DNA of 44,379 nt from Verrucomicrobiota bacterium (GTDB lineage: Bacteria; Verrucomicrobiota; Verrucomicrobiia; Limisphaerales; J093): positions 1 through 44,379 of the forward strand of contig JAKLFY010000052.1 in NCBI GenBank assembly GCA_022710935.1. The letters run 5' to 3'. Positions 3,031 to 38,608 of this stretch are shown here, one piece after another; positions within the stretch are counted from its first letter, which is position 1; every line of letters starts with the position of its first letter. The translations under genes and the position numbers were made by a program. The notes under the pieces were generated by a model. It did not search any database. It was given only the letters and a program-made list of their open reading frames with translations, and was not told where the DNA came from.

Positions 3031-3114
3031 CGCCGCGTGGGGGCACGCGGCCTACACCGGGAGTCTCGATCCGGTGTAGGCCCGGTGCCCTCACCGGGCG
3101 ACAGAACACCGACA
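3031..3114. repeat. composite palindromic GTAGG repeat, copy 1
   Basis: Two hairpins face each other. The left one is CCGCGTG (3033-3039), loop GGGG, CACGCGG (3044-3050). The right one is CCCGGTG (3081-3087), loop CCCT, CACCGGG (3092-3098). Between them, CCTACACCGG (3051-3060) and CCGGTGTAGG (3071-3080) form a perfect 10-bp inverted repeat around ten bases. A tail containing ACAGAACACCGAC follows. The right hairpin, centre and tail recur in inverted orientation at 36259-36324, so this is a dispersed REP/BIME-like element and not a local terminator. Confidence 0.85.
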
Positions 3115-19157: not shown

Positions 19158-19230
19158 CTAGCCTGCATGCTGACTTCTCTTGTGAACTCCGGCTTCGCGG
19201 TGGCACAAAGTGGTGAGAAATGCAGGCTAG
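19158..19230. repeat. 73-bp structured repeat, copy A
   Basis: The ends CTAGCCTGCAT (19158-19168) and ATGCAGGCTAG (19220-19230) are perfect 11-bp inverted repeats. Inside, TTGTG and CACAA can pair around the CTCCGGCTTCGCGG core. Copy B at 29620-29692 differs by only two bases inside the shared 70, and copy C at 37663-37736 is a diverged relative. The right arm supplies the TAG stop (19227-19229) of the site-2 protease gene. Confidence 0.9.
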
Positions 19231-20327
19231 CCCGCAGCCGCCTTGCGTTTGCCTTTGAGAGCGGACTGGATCATGAGAAACTCACCCAGATTCTCCGCGG
19301 TGACCATGCCGACGAGGCGGTTGTGGTCCAGGACCGGCAGCGAGCGGCAATCCGATGTCTGGAGGCGTCCGAACACGGCGTCGGCCTCCTCGGCCGGGCG
19401 GGCGGTTTGGAACTCGCGCTGCATCACGTCATTGACGGTGGCGTTCTGTCCCTGGCGCGTGAGGGCGGTGAGGAGCCCGCGGCGCGTGAGGATGCCGACG
19501 ACGCGGTCGCCTTCGAGGACCGGGAAATCCTGATGGAAGCCGGCAAGCGTGTGGTCGATGGCGCGCTCGAGATGGTCGTGAGGTGCGAGGGTGCGGAGGT
19601 CGGTGATCATGACGCGCTCGATGGGCACGCCCGACAACACCGAGCGCATTTTGACCAGTTCGAGTTCCTGATCGGCACCGACGAAGACGAACAGGGCGAT
19701 GAACACCCAGAGCGGGTTCATGGCGTAGAGGCCCACGGCGCCAAAGGCGAACGCCAGCGCCTGGCCCACATCCACCGCCAGCCGCGTGGCGCGGTTGGCG
19801 CCCAGCCGCATGGCCAGGATCGAGCGCAAGACCCGTCCGCCATCCATGGGAAAGGCGGGAACCAGGTTGAACACGCCCATGGCCAGGTTGGCCCACGCCA
19901 GTTTCTGGAGGAAATGGCCGCCTCCCCAGCTCAGATCGGTCGTCAGCGCCAGCTCCGAGATCGGGCTGATCGTTCCCCAGTAGAGGAGGGCGATAAGGAA
20001 ATTCACGGCCGGACCCGCCAGGGCGACGATCAACTCCTGGTGCGGCTTGTCCGGTAGCGCGTCCATCCGGGCGAGGCCGCCGATGGGCATCAGGGTGATG
20101 TCGCGCGTTCGGATGCCGTAGCGGCGGGCGGCGAGGGCGTGGCCCAGTTCATGGAGGAGGACGATGACGAAGAAGCACGCGACGAACAGCACCGCCTCGA
20201 CAACGTCGCCTGCCCGATGCCGCCACGCGTAGTATTCGTACCCGACCCACGCGATCAGGATCAGCAATGTGGCATGGAGATAGACTGTGACGTCGGCGAT
20301 GCGCCCGACCCGCCAGGACCATTTCAT
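19227..20327 (-). CDS. site-2 protease family (M50) metalloprotease with two CBS domains
   Basis: 366 residues. An intramembrane zinc protease that cuts substrates within the membrane, often in regulated proteolysis. The zinc ligands are in HELGH (H59, E60, H63), with the third ligand in NLVPAFPMDGGR around residues 160-171. About five membrane helices fill residues 15-220. Two CBS domains follow (about 235-290 and 300-355), which usually bind adenine nucleotides and regulate activity; the words are VMITDLRTLAPHD and VNDVMQREFQTARP. It lies 49 bases after frr in the same direction. Its stop codon is supplied by the adjoining 73-bp repeat. Confidence 0.9.
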   Translation of the reverse strand: MKWSWRVGRIADVTVYLHATLLILIAWVGYEYYAWRHRAGDVVEAVLFVACFFVIVLLHELGHALAARRYGIRTRDITLMPIGGLARMDALPDKPHQELIVALAGPAVNFLIALLYWGTISPISELALTTDLSWGGGHFLQKLAWANLAMGVFNLVPAFPMDGGRVLRSILAMRLGANRATRLAVDVGQALAFAFGAVGLYAMNPLWVFIALFVFVGADQELELVKMRSVLSGVPIERVMITDLRTLAPHDHLERAIDHTLAGFHQDFPVLEGDRVVGILTRRGLLTALTRQGQNATVNDVMQREFQTARPAEEADAVFGRLQTSDCRSLPVLDHNRLVGMVTAENLGEFLMIQSALKGKRKAAAG

Positions 20328-29363: not shown

Positions 29364-29541
29364 ATACAGGCCCTTGCCAACGCGCGATGCGGACTCTGGT
29401 TTCATTGGCTGTCGGTCCGTGACGCGGGCAATGGAACCCGAATCGGGCAGCGCGCGCATTTATAATGACTTGGGACGATTGTACGCCGACGCGGGACTTC
29501 GCTCCTCCGCGCGCGGACGGCGAGGTCGCGAGGCGCCCCGG

Positions 29542-29565
29542 AGCGCCGGCTTGCAGCCGGCTTAA
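29542..29565. repeat. CCGGCT/AGCCGG hairpin repeat
   Basis: AGCGCCGGCTTGCAGCCGGC plus TTAA forms a stem CCGGCT/AGCCGG with a short loop. Its reverse complement recurs with two differences at 44268-44291, where a group II intron seems to begin directly after it. Confidence 0.7.
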
Positions 29566-29619
29566 CGCGGGCGCCGTCCCCGCAGAGGTTCATCCGCCCA
29601 ATGCGTTCCCAAGAGAGAA

Positions 29620-29692
29620 ATCGCCTGCATGCTGACTTCTCTTGTGAACTCCGGCTTCGCGGTTGCAAAAAGTGGTGAGAAATGCAGGCTAG
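29620..29692. repeat. 73-bp structured repeat, copy B
   Basis: The part from 29623 (GCCTGCAT) to 29692 (GCTAG) is identical to copy A apart from two bases in the TTGCAAAAAG segment. The first three bases have changed, so the arms pair over 8 bp only. It lies 68 bases before the esterase start, away from any stop codon. Confidence 0.88.
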
Positions 29693-36144: not shown

Positions 36145-36255
36145 GAGAGGTATTAACAGTCCTGCGCACGATGCGTTTCTTACGTTCGAGAATGGACGAG
36201 ACTTGCCGCGGGAGCAACATATTCAAGGCAGCTTGTACCGTCTCCGGTGCATCCG

Positions 36256-36324
36256 GTCGGTGTCGGTGTTCTGTCGCCCGGTGAGGGCACCGGGCCTACA
36301 ACGGATGGAGACTGCCGGTGTAGG
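36256..36324. repeat. composite palindromic GTAGG repeat, copy 2 (inverted)
   Basis: Relative to copy 1 it is reversed: GTCGGTGTTCTGTCG, then CCCGGTG (36277-36283), AGGG, CACCGGG (36288-36294), CCTACAACGG (36295-36304), ten bases, CCGGTGTAGG (36315-36324). The second hairpin of copy 1 is missing; the argD stop (36327-36329) follows after two bases. Confidence 0.85.
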
Positions 36325-36326
36325 CT

Positions 36327-37613: not shown

Positions 37614-37662
37614 AAAAGGGAGTCCATTCGATCCAAGGGGCGTCCGGCGCGGTTTTGCCTCG

Positions 37663-37736
37663 CTAGCGCGCATGAGTGCACTTTTCGATAACCTCAGCTC
37701 CGCGTTCTTCGGAGGTTGGTGAGCAATGCGCGCTAG
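37663..37736. repeat. 74-bp structured repeat, copy C
   Basis: Ends CTAGCGCGCAT (37663-37673) and ATGCGCGCTAG (37726-37736) are perfect 11-bp arms. Compared with copies A and B, both arms have changed at matching positions (CCTG to CGCG on one side, CAGG to CGCG on the other), so pairing is kept. Inside, AACCTC and GAGGTT, and CTCCG and CGGAG, can pair. The right arm gives the argB stop TAG (37733-37735). Confidence 0.88.
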
Positions 37737-38608
37737 AGCACCACCTCCGTCCCGACGCCTTCGTCGGTGAAGATCTCGAGAAGAACCGCGTGAGGCACCC
37801 GCCCGTCGACGAACGAGACCTTGTCGACCCCGGCCCGAATGGCGGCGACCGCGCTGTCGACTTTGGGAATCATGCCCCGCTCGACAATCCCGGCGTGCTT
37901 GAGGGCGTCCACCTCGCTGGCGCGCAGATGCGGGATCAAGGTGGCGGGATCCCTGGGATCGCGCAGCAAGCCCGGCACATCGCTCATGAAAACCAGCCGC
38001 CGCGCGCGCAACGCGATGGCCGCGCGCGCCGCCGCAACGTCCGCATTGCAGTTGTAGACCTGGCCGTCCTTGTCCCGCGCGGTGGGGCTGATCACGGGCG
38101 TGATCCCCTTCTCGATGCAGGCCAGAAGCGGGGCCGTGTTCACGCCGGTCACTTCGCCCACGAAACCGATGTCCACCGGCTGCCCGTCCGCCCCATGCAC
38201 CAGAAGCTTCCGACAGGTGAAAATCTCCGTGCCGGCGAAACCCTTGGCCAGCCCGCCCAACGAGCTGATCGTCGTCACCACCTCCGGATTGATCTCGCCC
38301 GAAAGCACCGCATCGACCACCCGCACCGTCGCGGCGTCCGTGACACGCTGGCCCTGGACGAATTGCGCCTTCAGCCCCGCCTTCTCCATCGCGCGCGTGA
38401 TCGCCTTGCCGCCCCCATGCACCACGACGGGATTGATCTCCGCGGCCTCAAGAAAGACAATGTCCCGCGCAACACCGGTGCGGATGACCGGGTCGGGCGA
38501 GTCCATGAAGCTGCCGCCGTATTTGACGACAAACGTGGCCCCGCTGTACTTCTGGAGATAGGGCAATGCCTCGAGCAGCGTCGCGGCTTTCGAGATCAGG
38601 TCTTGCAT
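37733..38608 (-). CDS. argB: acetylglutamate kinase
   Basis: 291 residues of the amino-acid-kinase fold catalysing the second step of arginine synthesis. VKYGGSFMDSP is the glycine-rich phosphate loop, VVVHGGGKAITRAMEKAG binds acetylglutamate, and YNCNADVAAARAAIALRARRLVFMSDVPGLL is the ATP region. GGMIPK-like VERGMIPKVDSA is conserved. The extended N-terminal helix suggests the arginine-inhibited hexameric type; that is inference. It starts the argB-argD-mrp-pfkA run and is divergent from prmC. Confidence 0.95.
   Translation of the reverse strand: MQDLISKAATLLEALPYLQKYSGATFVVKYGGSFMDSPDPVIRTGVARDIVFLEAAEINPVVVHGGGKAITRAMEKAGLKAQFVQGQRVTDAATVRVVDAVLSGEINPEVVTTISSLGGLAKGFAGTEIFTCRKLLVHGADGQPVDIGFVGEVTGVNTAPLLACIEKGITPVISPTARDKDGQVYNCNADVAAARAAIALRARRLVFMSDVPGLLRDPRDPATLIPHLRASEVDALKHAGIVERGMIPKVDSAVAAIRAGVDKVSFVDGRVPHAVLLEIFTDEGVGTEVVL

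Follow-up and report, generated by a model that had tools for sequence, protein, structure and literature searches.

Paired ends of a short repeat

The window (the whole stretch of 44,379 nucleotides of Verrucomicrobiota DNA analysed here) contains three copies of a short repeat, A, B and C, whose paired ends change together between copies, and the question is what has kept these ends alike. A preliminary description had considered selection on an RNA or DNA hairpin, a REP/RAYT element and a MITE-like mobile element. We conclude that the repeats are non-autonomous MITEs which use the ends of the IS1380 transposase family (probability approximately 0.88), and the suggestion of a MITE-like mobile element was thus borne out, with the ends now tied to a transposase family.

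The positions earlier given for the three copies are all correct (Table 1), and copies A and B match at 97%, with the expected two mismatches in the shared 70 bases. Paired ends are indeed present in copies A and C, whereas copy B starts with ATCG instead of CTAG and its outer stem is broken. The co-variation between the ends of A and C is real, but it separates subfamilies and is no rule for individual copies.

Table 1. Copies of the repeat in the window, their parts and the adjoining genes.
Feature	Position	Strand	Remarks
Copy A, subfamily S1	19158-19230	+	left target copy CTAG 19158-19161, right target copy CTAG 19227-19230
Copy A, short left TIR CCTGCAT	19162-19168	+	
Copy A, right TIR ATGCAGG	19220-19226	+	
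Copy A, right end GGTGAGAAATGCAGGCTAG	19212-19230	+	CTAG followed by CCTGCATTTCTCACC when read inwards; IS1380-type terminal inverted repeat plus target copy
Copy B, subfamily S1	29620-29692	+	left target copy/end mutated (ATCG)
Remnant of middle module H2, GGCGCGGTTTTGCCTCG	37646-37662	+	left of copy C
Copy C, subfamily S2 (CTAGCGCGCAT/ATGCGCGCTAG)	37663-37736	+	
M50 peptidase/CBS-domain gene	19227-20327	-	TAG stop 19229-19227 in right-hand CTAG of copy A
Amino-acid-kinase-family gene	37733-38608	-	TAG stop 37735-37733 in right-hand CTAG of copy C

Family size, subfamilies and composites

The genome to which the window belongs (G000; a 7.5 Mb draft in 259 contigs, 95.7% complete) contains approximately 100 copies of the repeat family. 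BLAST gave at least 40 matches, with copy C not among the matches listed, and a covariance model (R2, which has an automatic fold lacking the outer stem and was used purely as a sequence finder) gave 72 matches at E≤0.001 and 108 at E≤1, detecting copy C at 6e-9. The right end GGTGAGAAATGCNSGCTAG, allowing one mismatch, was found 110 times versus 0 for a reversed control pattern, and the number of repeats in this genome is far above chance. The covariance model search of relatives, a check proposed in the preliminary description, added at least 23 matches in the genus-mate G001, and found no copies in 56 other relatives. There was no Rfam match at gathering score, either in the window or in the loci.

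Aligned copies define subfamilies S1 (CTAGCCTGCAT../..ATGCAGGCTAG, copies A and B), S2 (CTAGCGCGCAT../..ATGCGCGCTAG, copy C), S3 (CTAGCCCGCATG..CATGCGGGCTAG) and S4 (75–79 bp, with the end GGTGAGAAATGCGGGCTAR). Many copies have a second hairpin, H1 (CTAGCCCGGATTTCTCAC...GAAATCCGGGCT), upstream, either directly or via a middle module H2 (GGCAAAACCGCGCCC...GGGCGCGGTTTTGC), and three-module H1-H2-S composites of approximately 240 bp, in which each module is an inverted repeat, are present at loci L003, L004, L027 and L038. In such composites the two outer ends, CTAGCCCGGATTTCTCAC and GTGAGAAATGCAGGCTAG, form an inverted-repeat pair. Overall the repeats measure 65–240 bp, have no coding capacity and have inverted ends of 7–11 bp, which reach approximately 18–21 bp in the composites and in other phyla; the left end shares only 7 bp with the right end, or 11 bp including the CTAG, which counts against the MITE reading. 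The ends are common to size classes with unrelated interiors, and the interiors are not conserved between subfamilies either. Set beside pneumococcal BOX elements by description, the family shares their modular composite layout with an optional middle module, although the H1-H2-S modules are IS1380-ended.

Ends shared with the IS1380 family

When species genomes were scanned for GGTGAGAAATGCRSGCTAG, at least 118 stretches were found versus approximately seven expected by chance (estimated from the collection size). They come from Gammaproteobacteria, Acidobacteria, Deltaproteobacteria, Planctomycetota and other groups, and many form facing pairs 150–250 bp apart; this excess and arrangement indicate transposon ends. 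Transposases of the IS1380 family (PF13701, DDE_Tnp_1_4) are encoded in 93 of 196 genomes of the order of the window, where the PF13701 element of genome G083 has the end CCCGCAWATCTCACCAG (CCCGCAWATCTCACC) and that of G010, from the same family, the end CCCGGATATTTCATAC, with similar ends in further members. When used in tblastn searches, the G083 protein matched plasmid proteins annotated as IS1380 family with up to 50% identity. The IS1380-annotated element on Pseudomonas putida plasmid pKF715A has CTAG followed by CCCGCATTTCTCACAG at both ends, which is nearly the right end of the repeats, while a Bradyrhizobium CB82 element is bounded by CTAG followed by CCCGCATTTYTCACA and a Rhizobium element has ends of the same type as these two. 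The repeats and IS1380 elements have in common the terminal inverted repeat CCCGCATTTCTCAC(C/A), the CCC...GGG ends and a 4-bp YTAR target duplication, whereas the repeats differ by their small size, divergent interiors and lack of a transposase.

The genome of the window itself contains a remnant of an IS1380 transposase (locus L252, a match of 96 aa), which has one end, TTAACCCGGACTTCTCACC. Neither this 95.7% complete draft, which has only the 96-aa fragment, nor the partial matches in G001 yielded an intact IS1380 transposase bounded by exactly these ends, and we count this against the MITE reading. A MITE usually shares its genome with an intact cognate transposase, but this is not required, since the partner may have been lost or be absent from the assembly; with no intact IS1380 partner found in G000, we infer mobilisation in trans. 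IS1380A of Acetobacter (L286) lacks ends of this type, and those of other PF13701 loci also differ, which limits the link to one IS1380 subgroup.

Bacterial MITEs have been described in general terms by size, TIRs, hairpin folding, high copy number and position next to genes (PMC3733652), and in all of these the repeats resemble RUP, NEMIS/Correia, ERIC and Nezha, from which they differ in ends and target. The repeats are short, non-coding and dispersed, with TIRs, a target duplication and insertion polymorphism, and their ends match IS1380-family elements, as expected of MITEs with an IS1380 cognate. Neither a MITE of the IS1380 type nor the sequence CTAGCCCGCATTTCTCAC was found in the open literature searched; the family has no name in Rfam and, to judge from the open papers, no published one.

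Target duplication and insertion polymorphism

Copies of IS1380 elements in the order of the window are flanked by 4-bp direct repeats, either TTAG..TTAG (L406, L412) or elsewhere CTAG..CTAG or TTAA..TTAA, with the flanking copy changed on one side in 2/14 cases. Since these elements carry such flanks, the CTAG of the repeats is a target duplication and not part of the element. Composite copies also have direct pairs, TTAG..TTAG (L027) and CCAG..CCAG (L024), and the non-palindromic TTAG cannot belong to an inverted repeat.

Comparison of the two related genomes, with G001 read in pieces totalling 1.27 Mb, gave sites which differ in occupancy. At position 30119 of contig C210, G001 reads CTCG-CTAG-GGATTC with a single CTAG, versus CTCG-CCAG-[element]-CTAG-GGATTC in G000, with the genomes approximately 93–95% identical around this site, and at a second site (C8, position 15658) the element is also absent from G001. 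The sites at L012 and L025 are filled in both genomes, and the simplest reading is that insertions took place both before and after the split of the two species, with precise loss as the alternative. The 900 bp left of the shared copy at L025/L372 are 100% identical between genomes which otherwise differ by 5–8%, which represents either recent transfer or a mis-binned contig.

No clean empty site for copies A and B was found in G001. Copy B is adjoined by another repeat (29474-29590), which has copies in G001, and the orthologous position in that genome lacks approximately 200 bp that include both this repeat and copy B. Where G000 has copy C, a different short inverted repeat (CCAGCCCGGATTTGCGCAATATGGGGCTAG) is present in G001, which suggests repeated use or turnover of one site.

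Overlap with stop codons

The reading frames flanking the repeats were checked in all three frames, with a filter for coding bias. The right-hand CTAG contains the TAG stop codon of a gene in 27/53 copies in G000, including copies A and C of the window, and in 10/19 copies in G001, whereas the left-hand CTAG does so in only 4/38 and 2/9 copies, respectively. For comparison, 60/316 CTAG sites in G001 overall are gene stops in either orientation, but this comparison overstates targeting because selection enriches retained CTAGs for stops. In solo copies with both ends intact, the strictest set, the right-left asymmetry falls to only 9 versus 3 (p=0.15). The right-end bias (27/53 vs 4/38) is an orientation effect which has no explanation if the repeats are MITEs, and we count it against that reading.

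As a mechanism, we propose that an IS1380 transposase acting in trans would recognise the right end CC(N)GCATTTCTCACC together with a shorter left end, and would move either the 65–66-bp element or a 125–240-bp H1-(H2)-S composite to a 4-bp YTAR target, usually CTAG, which would be duplicated upon insertion. Insertion at a CTAG overlapping a TAG stop would do no harm, since the stop is rebuilt by the duplication, and this may place many copies exactly at gene ends. Both ends would be transposase binding sites derived from a symmetric founder, so that the ends of each subfamily agree, with transposase recognition probably keeping them symmetric and the short interior allowing a hairpin.

Covariation and alternative explanations

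The double changes noticed in the window separate subfamilies CCTGCAT, CGCGCAT and CCCGCAT, and both partners of pairs 6-69 and 7-68 differ between subfamilies, in copies chosen as well paired. Such covariation, strong between subfamilies in these well-paired copies, is what would be expected of a structured RNA with its pairing under selection, i.e. a 3'-UTR stabiliser, decay signal or terminator, as are the frequent position of the elements directly after a stop codon in one orientation and the folding of copies A, B and C, which beats that of shuffled sequences (z -5.3, -2.5 and -2.8, respectively). However, in the alignment of 30 S1 copies plus copy C, 89.1% of the arm cells pair versus 88.4% in shuffles (75/500), with the covariation score reached by 25/500 shuffles. 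Within all subfamilies, the arms contain 73 single and three non-complementary double changes versus nine complementary double changes, one-sided changes outnumbering complementary ones by approximately 8:1. Hairpin selection is therefore not shown and need not be assumed: pairing is lost within subfamilies at least as readily as it is kept, the outcome named beforehand as speaking against a hairpin, and TIRs explain the symmetry between subfamilies. With interiors that differ between subfamilies and no Rfam match, we regard a selected RNA structure as very improbable. A different route to symmetry is quasi-palindrome template switching, which copies one arm onto the other and would partly keep the ends alike in the absence of selection. 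Where both tetranucleotides have changed, complementary changes number 8 versus 3.5 expected (p=0.01, permutation), at positions which should be free of the effects of both founder symmetry and transposase binding. Nor is this expected from plain target duplication, which we count against the MITE reading; the weak excess in the CTAG tetranucleotide may have arisen when one arm was copied onto the other. On the other hand the numbers are small, 43 one-sided changes at the same four positions were left uncorrected, and template switching leaves the dispersal of the family unexplained. We consider it a possible though doubtful contributor, compatible with MITEs.

The REP/RAYT suggestion is not supported. 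Here, REP or REPIN sequences would be dispersed by a RAYT (Y1) transposase recognising a tetranucleotide at the foot of the hairpin, and the family does share with them short dispersed hairpins, at times in inverted pairs, the H1-H2-S composites holding related hairpins which face inwards as in REPINs. There are also 12 Y1_Tnp matches in the genome, one of which is approximately 1 kb from the composite copy at L038, but the other 11/12 loci have no copy within 1.5 kb, so the proposed search for a RAYT gave no consistent link. While REPs are 20–40 bp and tagged at one end with GTAG or CGTC (PMC3733652), the repeats have CTAG at both ends, and the 4-bp target duplication contradicts this type of dispersal. 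GTAG hairpins form separate repeats in the window, and dispersal by a RAYT is, if anything, even less credible than a selected RNA structure. These GTAG-tagged REP-like hairpins, for example GTAGGCCCGGTGCCCTCACCGGGC, are located at 3076(+), 3055(-), 31911(+) and 36299(-), and 34 matches to the repeat around 36245-36326 occur in the 1.27 Mb of G001.

Elements of 184–186 bp in other phyla

In total 66 distinct end-to-end elements were collected (L134-L251), nearly all from other phyla and mostly folding over their full length; the loci examined around the elements from other phyla, up to 8 kb in size, revealed no IS1380 gene. Nineteen elements of 184–186 bp align almost without gaps (alignment A5), and come from Gammaproteobacteria, Acidobacteriota (Holophagae, Thermoanaerobaculales and Bryobacterales), an Actinomycetota MAG and Deltaproteobacteria. 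Using the 71-pair structure of one of these 19 members, double changes were found in 35 of the 71 pairs, the covariation score was 0.327, a value reached by none of 500 shuffles (0.151 ± 0.010) and compared with a maximum of 0.149 in slid controls, and a G-U pair was kept in 18/19 elements. Relatedness, contamination of MAG bins and arm conversion may be alternative sources of this strong covariation along the full-length stem. It is also conceivable, if unlikely, that the IS1380-ended MITEs include a homologous 184–186-bp class, spread over several phyla, in which compensatory changes maintain the full-length fold. A mobile element would then carry an RNA or ssDNA structure under selection, and the repeats of the window would be reduced relatives of this class, located at stop codons in a preferred orientation. 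If so, the structure in the window repeats could act on the 3' end of mRNAs.

Implications

With the repeats read as IS1380-ended MITEs, a hairpin repeat is accounted for without an RNA function, and transposon ends can mimic the covariation evidence for a structured RNA. Small elements with IS1380 ends, widespread across many phyla and unnamed, are also linked here to one transposase family, and the findings suggest that, by using CTAG as a target, such elements can occupy TAG stop codons and leave the gene undamaged.
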